This document shows, piece by piece, positions 51,142 to 58,425 of a stretch of 64,000 bases of DNA. The notes under the pieces were generated by a model. It was not told where the DNA came from and did no database searches. It saw only the letters and a list, made by a program, of their open reading frames with translations. Within the stretch, counting starts at the first letter, position 1. Each line of letters opens with the position of its first letter. The position numbers and the translations under genes were made by a program. The DNA lies in contig NZ_CP015749.1 of the NCBI RefSeq assembly GCF_001742145.1, forward strand, positions 3,720,001 to 3,784,000. Direction: 5' to 3'. Source of the DNA: Pectobacterium parmentieri (GTDB lineage: Bacteria > Pseudomonadota > Gammaproteobacteria > Enterobacterales > Enterobacteriaceae).

Positions 51142-53133
51142 TTAGTATTGGTAAGCAACACCTAACCAATAATTCCGTCCTTCCTCAACATACCCTTCCT
51201 GATAAGCGTAAGCCGTATCAAACAGATTATTTACGGATGCATTCACGCTGAAACCCGCACCCAGACGATAATCCACCCGCACATTGGTCATCGCAAATCC
51301 GCGCGTTTTATCGTTATTATCTGAATTATTGAATCCCCAGCTACGCGCTTCTTCCATCACCGTAATGCTGACCGGCTCAACAGGCGTGATCGTTGCCCAG
51401 GCAAATACCTTATGCTTCGGCAGATCCACAATGTTGCCAATGTCTTTGCGTTTCGCATCACTATGAATCAGCCCATAGTTAACTCCGACGGTTAGCCAGT
51501 CTTTGACATCACCGTGAATGCCCAGATCCATACCGTAGTAATCCACCCGGCCACTGTTACGGTTTTGGATCAGGCTCGGCGTAATGTTATGCGCCAGAAT
51601 CGCATCCGATACCCGGTTGTAATACACGCTGGCATCGTAGCCCCAGCCTTCGGTAAGGCCACCGCGATAGTTCAGCTCAAGGTTTTGTGCACGCTCTGGT
51701 TTTAAGTTTGGATTAACCAATGCGGTCTGATTTTTGGCAGGCTTAGACGTGGTGTAACGCTCTTTCAGCGTGGGGAAACGGCTGCGTTCAGACAGCGATA
51801 ATTGCAGCTCATCGCGATTATCGAAGCGATATTTCGTCATCATCTGCCAGTTAAACGCATCCTGATTATTTTGGTCATAATTCGTCAGGGTGCCATTCTT
51901 CTCATGCTTCATACCCTGCTTACTGTCGCGCCAGTCGTAGCTCACGCCAAATACCGCGTCCAGCTTGTCGGACAGATTCCACTGGTATTCACTTGCCATC
52001 GACCAGGTACGATCTTTATAGCGATCGTAAGGCGCATCCAATGCCCCTTTTTCACGATGCACATCATCTTTCCAGTGTATGGCAAACGACAGTTGATCCA
52101 GTTCGCGCATATCAATGCCTAATTGCAGCCCCGCGCCGTTACTGAAATCCGCATAGTGGCTATAGTTCCCAACCTTGCTTTTGAAATCCGCCAGCGTTTT
52201 ATACATCAGCAAGGTATTTTCAAATTCATCGTGATAGAAGCGGCTTTTTAACGTCATTCTGTCACTTAACTTTGTCGTACCCTGATAGTAATAACTTTTC
52301 TTGTTGTAGTCCGGCCATTGCCAATAACGTGCCGACTGACTGCTGTTGCCCGCATAAGGCGGCGTATTCTTTTCACCTTCCTGATTGATGTAGGTGAACG
52401 TATATTCATCTGATTCACGTGGTGTAAACCCAACCTTAAGCATGCCGCGCTTATCATCGTTGGCGGAATTCATCCGTTGGCCTTCACTACCGGCAGTCGG
52501 GTTATCAACTCCATGGGGCAACCCGGTAAACCGTTGCTTCTGGCGGCTACCGCTAATCTGAAAGAACCCCAGCTCGCTTTTCCCGCCAAACGATGCATCC
52601 ATGTTATGGGCATTGTCACGCCCGCGTGACCAACCCTGATTCACACGCACATTGGCTTCCAACTCTTTTTTCGGCCGCAGCGTCGTGAGGTTAATCGAGC
52701 CTCCCATTTGATTCGGGCCTTGCAGCAAAGAGGTATACCCTTTAGACACCTCAACCGCTGCCAAGTCGGAAGCCTGGAAACGGCCAAGATCCAGATTCCC
52801 ATCATAGGGAACATAAATCGGCACGCCGTCGAGGAAAACCGGCACTTGTCGGCTATCAAATCCGCGGACTTTCACCTGTTGCTCGCTGCGTCCGCCTGAC
52901 TTTTGTAACATCACACCCGGCACGATATTCAGCGCTTCCGCCACGTTGCGTCGATTTAATCGGTTAATGGTTTCCTGATTGACCACATCGTTGGTCGCCG
53001 CGACCGGACTGCTCCACACCGTCATCACGTCCTTATCCTTCGTGGCCTCAGCCGTTTCACCAGCGGCGGCATAAGCACAAGAGGCTGGTAATAAACTGAC
53101 GGACAACAACCAACTTAATTGTTTTATTTGCAT
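51142..53133 (-). CDS. TonB-dependent outer-membrane receptor, probable molybdenum/tungsten-related
   Basis: This is a 663-residue TonB-dependent receptor. It has a signal peptide of about 23 residues (ends CAYA/AAG) and a plug domain at about 45-150 with PGVMLQKSGGRSEQQVKVRGF and VFLDGVPIYVPYDG. A 22-strand-type barrel follows, ending in the aromatic C-terminal YQY. The substrate cannot be read from the protein; BtuB- or siderophore-type receptors are alternatives. A near-consensus ModE box lies 24 nt before the start, and the adjoining operon holds ModD and a FecCD-type ABC system. I therefore infer uptake of molybdate, tungstate or a chelate of these. Confidence 0.85.
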   Translation of the reverse strand: MQIKQLSWLLSVSLLPASCAYAAAGETAEATKDKDVMTVWSSPVAATNDVVNQETINRLNRRNVAEALNIVPGVMLQKSGGRSEQQVKVRGFDSRQVPVFLDGVPIYVPYDGNLDLGRFQASDLAAVEVSKGYTSLLQGPNQMGGSINLTTLRPKKELEANVRVNQGWSRGRDNAHNMDASFGGKSELGFFQISGSRQKQRFTGLPHGVDNPTAGSEGQRMNSANDDKRGMLKVGFTPRESDEYTFTYINQEGEKNTPPYAGNSSQSARYWQWPDYNKKSYYYQGTTKLSDRMTLKSRFYHDEFENTLLMYKTLADFKSKVGNYSHYADFSNGAGLQLGIDMRELDQLSFAIHWKDDVHREKGALDAPYDRYKDRTWSMASEYQWNLSDKLDAVFGVSYDWRDSKQGMKHEKNGTLTNYDQNNQDAFNWQMMTKYRFDNRDELQLSLSERSRFPTLKERYTTSKPAKNQTALVNPNLKPERAQNLELNYRGGLTEGWGYDASVYYNRVSDAILAHNITPSLIQNRNSGRVDYYGMDLGIHGDVKDWLTVGVNYGLIHSDAKRKDIGNIVDLPKHKVFAWATITPVEPVSITVMEEARSWGFNNSDNNDKTRGFAMTNVRVDYRLGAGFSVNASVNNLFDTAYAYQEGYVEEGRNYWLGVAYQY

Positions 53134-53157
53134 GACATTGTTCCCTTAAAAAAACAC

Positions 53158-53185
53158 ATTGCTGTATAAATTTTTATATAACGAT
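53158..53185. promoter_or_regulatory. Predicted ModE operator of the TonB receptor gene
   Basis: ATTGCTGTATA, 6-bp spacer AATTTT, TATATAACGAT. The right arm matches the E. coli ModE consensus arm exactly and the left arm differs at two of 11 positions, with the expected 11-6-11 geometry. It lies 24 nt before the receptor ATG and overlaps TATA-rich -10-like sequence, as expected for repression by Mo-loaded ModE. Confidence 0.78.
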
Positions 53186-53200
53186 AGATATCACCGTTTC

Positions 53201-53221
53201 TCCCGACCCGATCGTTCGGGA
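53201..53221 (-). terminator. Hairpin between modD and the receptor gene
   Basis: TCCCGA pairs with TCGGGA over 9 nt, starting 9 bp after the modD stop. There is no T-run leftward, so it is a weak terminator at best; some read-through from the operon into the receptor gene is possible. Confidence 0.35.
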
Positions 53222-53229
53222 AAGCGGCG

Positions 53230-54078
53230 TTAGAGTATTGGGGTTAAAACAACGCGAATATCGGCGGAAGGCGCATGGTAAGGTGCAGAAGTGACCAACA
53301 ACGACACCCCCGTTGCGGCATAACGTTGAACCGTTTGCAGGTTAATTCCCCCCGCCGCCGACACCCTACAAGCAGGCGCATGCCGGGCCGCGTAAGACAA
53401 CGTGGATGCCACCTGCTCAGGCGTAAACTTATCAAGCTGTAGGACATCTGGTCCAGCGTTGAGCGCCTGTATCGCCTCATCGGGATGATCCACTTCAACG
53501 ATGATCGCTTTCTCCGGTGCAGCGTGACGCAACTGAGCAATGTGAGAGACCCAATCATCCTGATGCGGCAAAAAACGGCGGTGATTTGTGAAGAGCAGAA
53601 CAGTTTCTGCGCACCCCAGGCGATGCACGATACCGCCTCCAGCCAGCACGGCCAGTGTCGAGAGCGGTTTCGTGCCGGGAATAATTTTACGCGTACAGGC
53701 AATCTGCCCGGATGGAACCTCGCGAATATAAATAGCCTTCATTTGATACAGATATTCGCTGACACCACAGCACCATTCCAGTACGTTCTGTGTGACCTTC
53801 CACCCTTGATGTAACGCGGCAACCTTTCCTGTCGCAGCCAGCATCGCCTCACCGGGCTGCACGCGTGCACCTTCCTGAACGCCATATGTCACTTGCAGTC
53901 CCAACCGCTGCAACAAACGTTCCGCCACTGGCATGCCACTCACACATCCGCCCTGACGATGGAAAAACGTGATTTCCCCCTCTCCCTGCCCAATTCCCAG
54001 CGCACGGGTGGTGACATCGCCGTACTGAATATCCTCCAGCAGGAGTTGGTCAAGGTACGCATCTGGGATGTAAATCAT
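53230..54078 (-). CDS. modD: ModD, QPRTase-like pyrophosphorylase of molybdenum operons
   Basis: ModD resembles quinolinate phosphoribosyltransferase (NadC) and is known from molybdenum-transport operons such as that of Rhodobacter capsulatus; its reaction is not established. The start at 54078 (MIYIPDAYLDQLLLEDIQYGD) gives 282 residues. QPRTase-type motifs are seen: CTRKIIPGTKPLSTLAVLAG, GGGIVHRLG, and an acidic VEVDHPDEA in the barrel. NadC is the alternative, but the operon and the missing NadC-specific pattern at the N-terminus favour ModD. It overlaps the methyltransferase stop by 4 bp and is last in the operon. Confidence 0.85.
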   Translation of the reverse strand: MIYIPDAYLDQLLLEDIQYGDVTTRALGIGQGEGEITFFHRQGGCVSGMPVAERLLQRLGLQVTYGVQEGARVQPGEAMLAATGKVAALHQGWKVTQNVLEWCCGVSEYLYQMKAIYIREVPSGQIACTRKIIPGTKPLSTLAVLAGGGIVHRLGCAETVLLFTNHRRFLPHQDDWVSHIAQLRHAAPEKAIIVEVDHPDEAIQALNAGPDVLQLDKFTPEQVASTLSYAARHAPACRVSAAGGINLQTVQRYAATGVSLLVTSAPYHAPSADIRVVLTPIL

Positions 54079-54896
54079 CGTGTAAACTCCGCATGTGGCA
54101 CCACATCCCAGTAGACAAACGCCCAATCCCTCGTCGGCGAAACGAGCGGAATATCATCATGTTGGTGTGCATCGTAATAGATTCTCAGGCGCTGTATTTC
54201 TTCCTCATTCAGCTTGCCTAATGACCAGGCCACGCCTTCCGCAAAACGTTCGAATGTTTCGGCATGTCTTTGGCAATTCTGCCCGCGAATAAAGCTCACG
54301 TTGGCGTAAATCCCCATGCGATAGAGGATATTTACGGCATAGATATAGTTCGGTAGCGATGTCGACGTTCGGCCGATAGCCGCCGAAATCCGTGGATCGA
54401 CAAACGTAGGAGAAACCGTATGGGTGGTGTACACCCGCAGTCGAGCTTTCTGGTTTAGCTTGTAGAGTGCAGCCGCCAAATCCATGACCAGCGTAGACCG
54501 CGACGCCACGACAATGTCGCAGTCGGGCAAATTCGCCCAGTCATCTTCCCAGGCTCGGTGAGCAAACGTTGCATTCGTTATCCCCATGGCATCAGCCCGA
54601 CGGCGTGCCACGTCCAGCATGCCCTCGCTGTAATCGATGCCGTAAACCTGTTCAAGCCGCGACGCTACATTCAAACACACCGAACCCGGCCCGCATCCTA
54701 CATCCAGCAGCGTTTTAGCATCCGAAAAATCCATATTGGCGATGAACTGCTCCAGATACGGATCGCGTGGCCCTGCGCACTCTACTGCCATGTTTTCTGC
54801 GCGCTTATCCCAGTGTTCAGGTGTTTTGGCCGTTCTGGCCGCCCGCGCCATATGCGCCTGATAAAGCGCTGAAAAATCAATCTCATCAATAATCAT
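54075..54896 (-). CDS. Class I SAM-dependent methyltransferase
   Basis: This 273-residue methyltransferase has the SAM-binding motif TLLDVGCGPGSVCLN (about 62-76), an acidic residue after strand 2 (VYGIDYSEGM) and a motif IV-like CDIVVASRS. The substrate is unknown. It lies between the ABC ATPase gene (46 bp away) and modD, which it overlaps by 4 bp, so it is translated with the molybdenum system. It may alter a small-molecule ligand or a component of the transporter; this is inference only. Confidence 0.8.
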   Translation of the reverse strand: MIIDEIDFSALYQAHMARAARTAKTPEHWDKRAENMAVECAGPRDPYLEQFIANMDFSDAKTLLDVGCGPGSVCLNVASRLEQVYGIDYSEGMLDVARRRADAMGITNATFAHRAWEDDWANLPDCDIVVASRSTLVMDLAAALYKLNQKARLRVYTTHTVSPTFVDPRISAAIGRTSTSLPNYIYAVNILYRMGIYANVSFIRGQNCQRHAETFERFAEGVAWSLGKLNEEEIQRLRIYYDAHQHDDIPLVSPTRDWAFVYWDVVPHAEFTR

Positions 54897-54942
54897 ATTC
54901 TCTTCCTGACTTCTCTTTTTATTAGATGCCGCTTACCTGCAC

Positions 54943-55701
54943 TCAGGTACGGAAATGGGCGTGTATATCCGCTTCTTTGACGCCATACAGCGCCGCGAGC
55001 CTCGCGGGTGCCAGCAGCACGTCCGGGCTTCCTTGTTCCGTACCCGCCCCGGGGTGCAGCAAGACCACGTTATCCGCCACAGCTCGCGCATGCTGGGGAT
55101 GGTGTGTGGACATCAGCACCGCAATACCGCTTTCTTTAAGCCGTTTGATGTGTGCCAATAATCGAATCTGATTGCCAAAATCCAGACTGGCTGCCGGTTC
55201 ATCCATCACCATCAGCAAAGGTTGTTGTACTAATGCGCGAGCAATCAGCACGCGCTGTCGCTCTCCACCGCTCAGCGTCGCGTATGAGCGCTGGCTCAAC
55301 GACAGAATCCCAAGCTGGGATAACACCGCTTCAGCACACGCGATTTCACGCTTTCCCGGTGTGGAAAAGATCGACAAACGGGGGTGGCATCCCATCAGCA
55401 CCATATCCAACACGCGAAAAGCAAAGGGAGAGTCATGCGCCTGAGGCACATAGGCCGCAACATTCGCGAGCGCCTTGGCAGACCATGCAGTAATGGGTTT
55501 TTCGGCGATGTGTATCTGGCCGGAAAAGGCAGGGATCAAGCCCAGCAGGGTACGCATCAGCGTAGTTTTGCCGCTGCCATTCGCGCCCAGCAAGCAGGTA
55601 ATCTGCCCGGATGGCAGTGAAAATGAGATGTCACGATTCACCACGGTGCGGCCATATCCGACGCTAACCGCCTGAAGCGTGGCGATACAGGTATCCATCA
55701 T
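54943..55701 (-). CDS. ABC transporter ATPase, FecE/BtuD/MolC type
   Basis: This 252-residue ATPase has Walker [10 protein letters not shown] (about 38-46), Q-loop [10 protein letters not shown], signature LSGGERQR, Walker [14 protein letters not shown] and H-loop STHHPQHA. It belongs to the type II importer family (FecE, BtuD, Haemophilus MolC). The start overlaps the permease stop by 4 bp; a second ATG follows directly. It energises the permease encoded upstream. Confidence 0.9.
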
Positions 55702-56693
55702 GCTCTTTCCCCTCTCAACAGCAGGAGCAGAAAGAAGGGCGCACCAATGGACGATGTCAGAATGCCTAAAGGCAGTTCAATCGCGGCCAGCGTACGTGCC
55801 AGTGTATCGGTGAGTAACAGTAGCAGCGCACCGACAGCAATAGAAACGGGCAATAGCCGATTGAAATTGTCTCCGACGATCAAACGGCAGATGTGTGGCA
55901 CCACCAGCCCTATCCACCCGATGATTCCCGCAATCGACACGGCACTGGCGGTAATTAACGTCGCAGCAAAAATGAATAACAGCCGGGTATAACGAATATT
56001 CACCCCCAGCGTGCGGGCTTCTTCATCCGGCAGGCTCAACAGATTCATACGCCAGCGCAGTAACATGAGCGGAGCCAACCCAATCATAATTAGTATCGCT
56101 GCAACCTTTAAGTCTTGAACAGTGGTGGCGGAGAGCCCGCCCAATAGCCAGAAGGTAATTGATGGTAACTGAGTATAGGGATCGGCCAGGATCTTGATCA
56201 ACGCGATCGCCGCGCCACCTAATGCACCGATCGCCATGCCGACCAACACCAATGCCAATACGGGATCGTGTCGCTTCGCCATACGCGCAATCAGACAGAC
56301 CAGCGTCACCGCTCCCAGCCCACCAGCAAACGCCAGAAGCTGAATAAACAGCATGGGTAAGCCGAGGAAAATCCCGAACGTCGCCCCCACGCCAGCTCCC
56401 GCAGAGACGCCGAGAATATCGGGGGACACCAGAGGATTACGGAACATACCTTGATAAGCCGCACCGGCGGCGGCCAATCCGGCACCAATTAGCATCGCCG
56501 CCAACATGCGCGGCAAGCGAATGTTCCAGAATACGGTCGCTTTACGTGGTTCAATCGACGACGTTCCCTGCGGAGAAGTGATAATTTGCAGAATTTCATG
56601 CACAGAGAGGGAATAGTGCCCCACCGCTAATGCGAGCAGTGCACTGCTGATAAGCAAAACCCCCAGCAACAGAGCAAGAGTGTGAATCCTCAT
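55698..56693 (-). CDS. ABC transporter permease, FecCD/BtuC/MolB type
   Basis: This 331-residue inner-membrane permease has about ten helices and the FecCD family signature: GAGLAAAGAAYQGMFRNPLVSPDILGVSAGAG near 75-107 and GIIGWIGLVVPHICRLIVG near 265. These motifs mark BtuC-type importers, including Haemophilus MolB for molybdate. The start overlaps the binding-protein stop by 4 bp and the stop overlaps the ATPase start. Confidence 0.92.
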   Translation of the reverse strand: MRIHTLALLLGVLLISSALLALAVGHYSLSVHEILQIITSPQGTSSIEPRKATVFWNIRLPRMLAAMLIGAGLAAAGAAYQGMFRNPLVSPDILGVSAGAGVGATFGIFLGLPMLFIQLLAFAGGLGAVTLVCLIARMAKRHDPVLALVLVGMAIGALGGAAIALIKILADPYTQLPSITFWLLGGLSATTVQDLKVAAILIMIGLAPLMLLRWRMNLLSLPDEEARTLGVNIRYTRLLFIFAATLITASAVSIAGIIGWIGLVVPHICRLIVGDNFNRLLPVSIAVGALLLLLTDTLARTLAAIELPLGILTSSIGAPFFLLLLLRGERA

Positions 56694-57727
56694 GCCACTC
56701 TCAGCAGGTGTTCAAGCTGCTCATCATTGAGATCGGTATGGTAAAACAGGCGGAAAAACGCTCGGGTATCGCTTTTAAGTTGCTGGGCTGCGGCAGGGTC
56801 AAAATGGCTTTGTAAACGACACAGCCCCAGCAGCCGGTTTAGACCAGGCGGCGCATCCAGCCAGCCAAACGGCAGACCGGACATCAGGATAACGCGCTGC
56901 TGTGCCACCGCATCTACACCTTGCCATTGCGCGGAATGTGTAATGTGCTGATAGCTCTGCACATCCTGCGTGATGATAAGATCCGGGTTCCACGTCAGAA
57001 TGTGCTCCATCGACACCTGAGTCAGCGTGTTTAATTCTCCAGCGGTCGCGACGTTATCAAAACCCAACAGCTCTACCGCTTCGGTATGAAGCGAGCCACG
57101 CAAACCCGTTTCCAGCCCCATCGCCCCACGAGCAAAATAAAAACGCGGTTTCTCGGTTTGTGCGCTGGTACGGTAAGCATTGGCTCGTTGTAAAATAGCC
57201 TCAGCAAACTGTGCTTGCTGCTCTGCCCGCACCGTAACATTCAATAACTGCCCCACCTGCCGGAGCTGTGAAGGCGTATCCTGAAGACCACCATCCACCA
57301 GCACGTAAGGCACGCCGGTCTGCTGCGAGGTTCTCTGCGCCAGTGAGCGATACGTTTCATCGGCACTTCCGCAATCAATAATGATATCGGGGTTCAGCGT
57401 CAGCAGCTTTTCCAGCGATAACGTACTCGCTCGGCCTGATAAGCGCCCCAAGCGTGGCAATCGACGGACAGTTTCAGAAAATAATGCCCCCGACTCACCC
57501 GACAAATCGAATGATGAAAAACCCAGCAGCTTTTCCGGTACCAACGCCAGTAGCAGCAGATCAGCAGGAGGCCCTGCGCTGATCACACGCTGAATATCAG
57601 AAGGTTCAGGAATCTGGCCAAACCGCCCAGCAATTCGGTCAAACGCATGCGCAAAAGAAGCAGGTAAGAAAGACAACGCAGAAAGTGTCGCCAGATACGA
57701 CAAGAAAGTCCGTCTGTTCATTCCCAT
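56690..57727 (-). CDS. Periplasmic substrate-binding protein, FecB/BtuF/MolA type, Tat signal
   Basis: This is the periplasmic binding protein of the FecCD-type importer. The ATG at 57727 (MGMNRRTFLSYLATLSALS) is preferred because GGGATC lies about 5 nt before it; 57721 is an alternative. It has 345 residues. The N-terminus has a twin-arginine motif (NRRTFLS) and a hydrophobic stretch ending SFAHA, so Tat export is likely. Two lobes are recognisable by LLLALVPEKLLGFSS and EHILTWNPDLIITQDV, with a long linking helix between. It is first in the operon, behind a ModE box. Confidence 0.88.
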   Translation of the reverse strand: MGMNRRTFLSYLATLSALSFLPASFAHAFDRIAGRFGQIPEPSDIQRVISAGPPADLLLLALVPEKLLGFSSFDLSGESGALFSETVRRLPRLGRLSGRASTLSLEKLLTLNPDIIIDCGSADETYRSLAQRTSQQTGVPYVLVDGGLQDTPSQLRQVGQLLNVTVRAEQQAQFAEAILQRANAYRTSAQTEKPRFYFARGAMGLETGLRGSLHTEAVELLGFDNVATAGELNTLTQVSMEHILTWNPDLIITQDVQSYQHITHSAQWQGVDAVAQQRVILMSGLPFGWLDAPPGLNRLLGLCRLQSHFDPAAAQQLKSDTRAFFRLFYHTDLNDEQLEHLLRVA

Positions 57728-57749
57728 GATGATCCCAAAGTTAAATAAC

Positions 57750-57777
57750 AACGCTATATATATTTTTATATACCGAC
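57750..57777. promoter_or_regulatory. Predicted ModE operator of the ABC-methyltransferase-modD operon
   Basis: AACGCTATATA, 6-bp spacer TATTTT, TATATACCGAC. One of 11 and two of 11 positions differ from the ModE consensus arms. It lies 22 nt before the binding-protein ATG, almost the same distance as the box before the receptor gene, and overlaps a TATATA -10-like stretch. Confidence 0.75.
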
Positions 57778-57926
57778 ATTATCCACACACTAAATTCAGG
57801 GTCAATCACTCGGATCACATTTCCAGCGATATTAGACGTTGATAACCAGTACAATAAATGCGATGCGTTTTATCAATTCACAAAGAGAATGGGAAAGAAG
57901 GGAGAAATAATCTGCGGGAAAGAATA

Positions 57927-57963
57927 AGCCGATAAACCCGTATCCGTCGGTTTTTTATCGGCT
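57927..57963 (-). terminator. Long inverted repeat after the Mop gene
   Basis: AGCCGATAAA (57927-57936) and TTTATCGGCT (57954-57963) are exact reverse complements; inner AACC/GGTT bases extend the stem. It lies 34 bp past the Mop-gene stop and about 150 bp before the operon's ModE box, so it probably ends the Mop transcript, although the T-run lies inside rather than after the stem. Confidence 0.6.
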
Positions 57964-57996
57964 AAGCGCGATATGATTTACGCAAAAAAGCAGTAA

Positions 57997-58425
57997 TTAT
58001 TTCCGGGTAGCCAGAATAATGCTGGAAGCCTTCACCAACGCGATCAATTCACTGCCCACCTCAATCTGCATATCTTCCGTGCTTTCATTGGTAATGGTTG
58101 ATGTCAACGTCAAACCACCGCTGGTAACCAACTGTACCGTCGAGTTTACGGCACCTTTAATGACAGAACTCACCTTACCGTGAAACTGGTTGCGGGCAGA
58201 AAAAGTCAAACCACATTCAGCCGATGCCAGAATGACCCAGGGTGCTTTCACTAAGGCAATGGCGGGCTTACCGACAGCCAACGCCATCGAATCACAACTG
58301 GTTCGCGTAATGACTGTCGTTAGCTTATCTCCGCTCTCCAGCGTCAATGCGACTTCATTGTTTACTGCACCCTCAACAATAGAAGATACCGTACCCGATA
58401 ATTGATTTCTTGCTGAAACTGACAT
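57997..58425 (-). CDS. Tandem Mop-domain molybdate-binding protein (molbindin)
   Basis: This 142-residue protein consists of two Mop (TOBE) domains of about 65 residues: SARNQLSGTVSSIVEGAVNN at the start of the first and SARNQFHGKVSSVIKGAVNS at the start of the second, each ending in a VGxxxxALVKAxxxIL pattern. Di-Mop proteins bind molybdate or tungstate between subunits and buffer it in the cytoplasm. The ATG at 58425 follows AAAGGAG at 6 nt; an upstream ATG at 58467 is less likely. It lies 269 bp upstream of the transporter operon in the same direction. Confidence 0.9.
   Translation of the reverse strand: MSVSARNQLSGTVSSIVEGAVNNEVALTLESGDKLTTVITRTSCDSMALAVGKPAIALVKAPWVILASAECGLTFSARNQFHGKVSSVIKGAVNSTVQLVTSGGLTLTSTITNESTEDMQIEVGSELIALVKASSIILATRK

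Follow-up and report, generated by a model that had tools for sequence, protein, structure and literature searches.

The analysed window is a 64,000-bp stretch (positions 3,720,001-3,784,000) of the 5.03-Mb single-contig genome of Pectobacterium parmentieri (contig NZ_CP015749.1). Between accC and yhdT it carries a group of genes, here called the module, for a TonB-dependent receptor, an ATP-binding cassette (ABC) importer, a methyltransferase and ModD, with a gene for a di-Mop protein beside them. In a Klebsiella pneumoniae record accC and yhdT are adjacent, 108 bp apart. A preliminary description of the window had grouped these genes; all of them lie where it put them, on the minus strand, and their families were confirmed. 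The closest named relatives of the module genes come from Pectobacterium.

The receptor (51142..53133, minus strand, 663 aa) has both domains expected of a TonB-dependent receptor, a Plug domain (78.5 bits) and a 22-strand-type barrel (TonB_dep_Rec_b-barrel, 116.9 bits), each above its Pfam cut-off. None of the named NCBIfam receptor families listed is matched at its cut-off; the nearest profiles are siderophore, heme, and B12 types. The importer begins with a periplasmic binding protein (56690..57727; Peripla_BP_2 profile) that structure comparison places in the MolA/4pag class, followed by a FecCD-family permease (55698..56693; PF01032, 292 bits) and an ABC ATPase of the FecE/BtuD type (54943..55701; profile match). 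Behind these lie a class I S-adenosylmethionine methyltransferase of a ModE-linked family (54075..54896), recognized by its family profile and homologue loci and with a predicted model of pLDDT 89.9, and the quinolinate-phosphoribosyltransferase-like ModD (53230..54078; TIGR01334, 352.9 bits against a cut-off of 178.85). Binding protein and permease, permease and ATPase, and methyltransferase and ModD overlap by 4 bp each, and 46 bp separate the end of the ATPase gene from the methyltransferase. Because of these overlaps and the 46-bp gap, the five genes look like one operon. For the binding protein the start is an ATG at 57727 or 57721, with a TTG further upstream at 57751. ModD starts at the ATG at 54078, in a frame open to 54126, and there overlaps the methyltransferase stop.

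The di-Mop molybdate-binding protein has a separate gene (57997..58425, minus strand) that matches TIGR00638 twice above cut-off, giving two Mop/TOBE domains. Its start was kept at the ATG at 58425, as first described, in a frame open to 58467. We rejected di-Mop as a conserved part of the module, since Pectobacterium sp. PL152 (L035) is the one case beyond the window in which a stand-alone Mop gene next to the operon could be confirmed. Mop matches at three other loci (L101, L103, L111) are modE, as is, by eye, the one at L100; two more matches are at L106 and L108. ModABC and ModE (128.8 bits; cut-off 98.5) are both encoded in the P. parmentieri genome.

Operators and promoter of the module

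We searched with the pattern CGNTATATAN6TATATANCG (16 scored positions), which is the central part of the ModE consensus of E. coli given in PMC545781. The two near-consensus ModE boxes noticed earlier match it with 0 of 16 mismatches before the operon (57752..57775), where the surrounding stretch is conserved, and with 2 of 16 before the receptor (53160..53183), 26 bp ahead of the receptor ATG. These are the only window sites with three or fewer mismatches; shuffled sequences held 0.15 on average, and 2 of 100 reached two sites. Pectobacterium sp. PL152 has operators at both places, the operon one with a single mismatch. The pattern scan of the window gave no strong operator upstream of the di-Mop gene.

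A promoter-like site (TTGACC-16-GATAAT, 57778..57805, minus strand) stops 2 bp short of the operon operator. It is weak alone, with two sites of this type in the scanned stretch and 2.1 in shuffles; the stretch is conserved in PL152. An operator directly behind the -10 box is in a repressor position and would be expected to block transcription. Scanning for promoters at the receptor gave no promoter-like site. The ModE-type operator stands at the operon promoter, is kept in relatives, and belongs to a genome that encodes ModE.

An iron-siderophore or cobalamin system under Fur or B12 control would have contradicted the preliminary description, and at the level of sequence we saw no sign of one. 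No good Fur box was found at the promoters, the best match scoring 12/19, a level of at least 12 that 53 window positions reach; there was also no Rfam riboswitch match up to E 0.1. We rejected Fur or riboswitch control on this basis. Siderophore- or B12-synthesis genes were not evident by eye among the neighbours at 16 of the 80 loci described below. At one of these 16, in Raoultella planticola (L098:10001-13167), the methyltransferase homologue lies beside a different TonB-receptor-like gene and there is no ModE-type operator.

Distribution of the module and its operators

The named loci compared here are the best 80 of at least 402 confirmed by alignment of methyltransferase homologues, and they fall in Enterobacterales, Shewanella, betaproteobacteria, and a few other groups. 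Receptor, binding protein, permease, and ATPase stand together near the methyltransferase at 55 of the 80 loci. Binding protein, permease, ATPase, ModD, and receptor are complete at forty-three (43/80), and all but ModD are present at another 12, seven of them from Shewanella. The methyltransferase is alone at 10 loci and joined by ModD at 5; other partial sets, several at contig ends, make up the remaining 10. At three Edwardsiella loci (L072:10001-11667, L080, L088), methyltransferase and ModD stand under a ModE-type operator with no importer or receptor matches nearby.

The module is accessory. Counting the P. parmentieri genome itself, the receptor (E 1e-100 or better) occurs in 11 and the methyltransferase (E 1e-50 or better) in 16 genomes of a family sample of 149 that includes many reduced genomes; the methyltransferase (E 1e-40 or better) occurs in 4 of 299 genomes of a phylum sample. 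It was not found at E 1e-40 in one genome of the same genus (G389). A search of a plasmid collection matched only flanking core genes, in 16 records that each covered less than 80% of the query.

The 80 loci (1,577,994 bases) contain 99 operators with at most three mismatches (18, 40, 26, and 15 at 0, 1, 2, and 3, respectively), while five whole-locus dinucleotide shuffles produced between 2 and 9 per run, with no more than one at two mismatches. Nearly all (94/99) lie beside the start of a binding-protein, receptor, or methyltransferase gene. Counting by gene used binding-protein and receptor matches above 180 bits on the plus strand, the first per locus (57 and 60 genes). An operator was present at 48/57 binding-protein genes and 32/60 receptor genes, and many of the receptors without their own sit close behind the operon. 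Altogether 80 of these 117 start regions hold an operator with no more than 3/16 mismatches, against 0.46 expected from local shuffles of 450-bp regions with AT content kept. At two mismatches or fewer, 68/117 do so, against 0.02 expected (local dinucleotide shuffles). A reversed-pattern control on the loci (0, 5, 18, and 60 sites at 0 to 3 mismatches) was replaced by the shuffles, as it can match shifted TATATA runs inside real sites. Operators are absent in 15 of the 80 loci, including the complete operons L078 and L091.

Links to other molybdenum genes

ModE was found in all 25 named genomes checked (25 of the 80), scoring above cut-off in 23 and below it in the other two, Shewanella marina and Castellaniella. 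Within the family sample it is present in 10 of the 11 receptor genomes and 15 of the 16 methyltransferase genomes, compared with 91/149 overall, where reduced genomes account for many of those without it. The sole exception in both sets, G082, nonetheless carries operators.

Some clusters include mod genes. In an Acidovorax metagenome-assembled genome (MAG) the order is receptor, a weak SBP_bac_11-like protein, binding protein, permease, ATPase, methyltransferase, a DUF364/DUF4213 'putative heavy-metal chelation' protein, ModD, and ModE. The Comamonas cluster has modE as well, and modB (TIGR02141, above cut-off) lies there between methyltransferase and ModD; in Allopusillimonas the methyltransferase is followed by modE. 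L100 and L103 have DUF2478 proteins placed after the receptor and ahead of the binding protein. The additions in the betaproteobacterial clusters are DUF364/DUF4213 (L101:10841-11713) and DUF2478 (L100:6423-6998, L103:6491-7105).

Genome-wide operator scans covered the P. parmentieri genome and five others. It has only two perfect sites, at this operon and at the moaA promoter. Nine sites have at most two mismatches, with neighbours judged by adjoining reading frames: moaA, this operon, this receptor, a second TonB receptor, a lone binding protein, a twin-arginine molybdoenzyme (formate dehydrogenase-like by eye), an hscC-like DnaK gene, a LysE-type gene, and one gene without an evident molybdenum link. 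A three-mismatch site lies at 775179 between modE and modA. Sites precede the hscC-like gene (L020:6566-8257, L212:3331; 1 and 2 mismatches) and the LysE-type exporter-like gene (L008:1581-2207, L194:818-1444) in two Pectobacterium-like genomes each.

At the same threshold of two mismatches, Shewanella indica has three sites (reversed control 2), one in the modA-modE gap with 0 mismatches and two at this operon. The Acidovorax MAG has two (control 1), both before the module receptor, Edwardsiella anguillarum eight (control 2), and Pectobacterium PL152 seven (control 4). In E. anguillarum the single perfect site lies some 420 bp upstream of a stand-alone di-Mop gene (L184:1943-2371). In Proteus mirabilis there are eleven sites (control 4), of which 10 are at this operon, at molybdenum genes, or near modE: two at the operon, two about 1 kb from the ModE match, and others at moaA, PhsA, two DMSO-reductase-type enzymes, an FhlA-like gene, and a ModA-ModB-like importer. 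The eleventh is without assignment.

Two further receptor groups outside the module carry the same operator type. The second receptor of P. parmentieri (730 aa, C1:215753-217942) has an operator with one mismatch, and a binding protein of its own comes next (pair at C1:215753-219027; L017:2754-6028). There are 25 matches to it in 20 of the 149 family genomes. All 17 of the intact closer matches (11 at 56-100% identity and six at 39-41%) have the operator, which is absent at six matches of 30-32% identity and at two pieces of a broken copy. Homologues elsewhere carry a full importer and keep the operator; in G134 one heads a receptor, binding protein, permease, and ATPase series, with modE about 10 kb away. 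The lone binding protein of the P. parmentieri genome (C1:1041179-1042213; L018:5180-6214), of the MolA class, follows an operator with two mismatches. The 39-41% receptors, a third group, adjoin homologues of it, as in G115, where the homologue comes after the receptor.

ModD and methyltransferase

We compared 51 ModD proteins (above 150 bits, 230-420 residues), leaving out broken or cut copies such as L067. All 51 keep the equivalents of Arg139, Lys140, His161, Arg162, His175, Glu201, and Asp222, and in all 51 Lys replaces NadC Arg105 and Phe replaces Lys172, so the quinolinate site is incomplete. ModD scores 156.1 bits against the nadC profile, below its cut-off of 198.4. In the quinolinate phosphoribosyltransferase of M. 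tuberculosis, the Lys172Ala and Arg105Ala proteins are inactive (PMC4065032). PMC2700814 lists ModD solely as a candidate quinolinate phosphoribosyltransferase. The fold of the methyltransferase offered no hint of its substrate, as many class I enzymes match the model at TM ~0.44-0.59.

Discussion

Judged by sequence, the cluster looks like an importer for iron or a vitamin; because ModE-type switch sites accompany it in many bacteria, it probably serves to take up scarce extracellular molybdenum or tungsten. We think it likely that the module is a ModE-controlled uptake system for molybdenum (or tungsten) whose substrate is most likely chelated. ModE control and a role in molybdenum metabolism are well supported at the level of sequence comparison, as operators precede both operon and receptor, modE and modB occur in betaproteobacterial clusters, the named genomes checked encode ModE, and the binding protein is of the MolA class. 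The comparison supports the preliminary proposal of ModE-controlled, TonB-dependent import, presumably of molybdenum or tungsten: ModE in 25/25 genomes, modE within the Acidovorax and Comamonas clusters, and strong co-occurrence of gene neighbourhood and operator (80/117 starts against 0.46).

Molybdenum passage across the outer membrane is usually ascribed to porins, and what TonB receptors generally take up are ligands whose size or scarcity rules out entry by porins. The transported species would be molybdenum or tungsten, and a chelated form is favoured since TonB receptors serve large or scarce ligands and ModABC already handles free molybdate here. By sequence comparison, molybdate-loaded ModE would repress receptor and operon, and molybdenum shortage would open both. 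The receptor would then carry the chelate through the outer membrane, and the binding protein would hand it to the FecCD/ATPase importer for delivery to the cytoplasm, as their protein families suggest. ModD lacks the required lysine yet keeps most of the other residues, so ModD and the methyltransferase may process the chelator; they could alter it or a related metabolite in the cytosol, freeing molybdenum, with Mop perhaps buffering the oxyanion.

Alternatively, the module might import free molybdate or tungstate, as a MolABC-like system with an outer-membrane step, and methyltransferase and ModD might be separate molybdenum-starvation genes within the operon. The structural class of the binding protein fits this, as do the movement of molybdate by MolBC-A (PMC4031551) and the three Edwardsiella loci with methyltransferase and ModD under an operator and no adjoining importer genes. 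We still regard it as unlikely: a small oxyanion should not need TonB, the genome already has ModABC, and importer, methyltransferase, and receptor occur together at 55/80 loci. It is also improbable that ModE sets only the timing, so that molybdenum shortage triggers import of another cargo, such as an iron chelate, a pterin, or another cofactor for molybdenum-independent metabolism. The binding protein frequently appears as an iron transporter in public records, its fold is close to YiuA, and the nearest receptor profiles, all below cut-off, are siderophore, heme, and B12 types. Against such a cargo stand the clustering with modE, modB, and ModD and the lack of a good Fur box or riboswitch at the promoters.

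One result weighs against ModE control: across the P. parmentieri genome, sites with up to three mismatches are no commoner than in the reversed-pattern control (30 and 31), and weak single sites therefore mean little. It fits a reading in which AT-rich promoters match the operator pattern by chance and the cluster is an ordinary iron or B12 importer. Local shuffles speak against such matches as the source of the operators at the 117 start regions, at three mismatches and at two alike, and among relatives of the second receptor the operator is confined to the closer ones. We accordingly consider this explanation very improbable.

If the module is a ModE-controlled route for molybdenum or tungsten, it would provide an energized outer-membrane step for molybdenum, through a TonB receptor under a molybdenum sensor. 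It would also give a role to a cluster of Proteus, Providencia, Morganella, Citrobacter, Shewanella, and others that is often annotated as iron transport, and a testable setting for ModD, which is named after the mod genes. More tentatively, one can picture a Proteobacterial molybdophore economy, in which ModE-repressed TonB routes take up molybdenum chelates, the methyltransferase and a re-specialized ModD make, recycle, or dismantle the chelator, and up to three receptor groups serve different chelates. A possible molybdophore, 8-hydroxyquinoline-2-carboxylate, has been put forward (PMC7356571). The regulators reconstructed for Shewanella include ModE, in a study whose main text makes no reference to TonB (PMC3223726), and passages of PMC5343134, PMC3759002, and PMC2667191 hold nothing bearing on the module. 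No TonB-dependent molybdenum receptor was found in the open literature, a scope that excludes subscription papers, supplements (including the ModE regulon tables of PMC3223726), and RegPrecise.

Several known systems share parts of the module. It is like BtuB-BtuFCD and the siderophore systems in joining a TonB receptor, a Peripla_BP_2 protein, a FecCD permease, and an ATPase, and unlike them in having ModE-type operators, no B12 riboswitch or good Fur box, and scores below their cut-offs. With ModE-ModABC it shares the operator type, as at Shewanella indica modA-modE, and members of the ModD and Mop families, but its importer is of the FecCD class rather than ModB and an outer-membrane receptor is added. 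ModD resembles NadC in the seven residues that it keeps and differs from it at Lys172 and Arg105. An outer-membrane step for molybdate has been reported in Pseudomonas aeruginosa, where ModA secreted by the H2-T6SS is used with IcmP, a protease-like outer-membrane protein, rather than a TonB receptor operon (PMC8602904, PMC11734730). At the level of class, the module is related to MolABC (HI1470-HI1472), the molybdate/tungstate importer of Haemophilus influenzae, whose MolBC-A is a low-affinity molybdate importer (PMC4031551): both combine a binding protein of the same structural class with a FecCD permease and an ATPase, though MolA is only 18-20% identical to the module protein and 4pag is the nearer structure. 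To this plan the module adds the TonB receptor, the methyltransferase, ModD, and the ModE-type operators.

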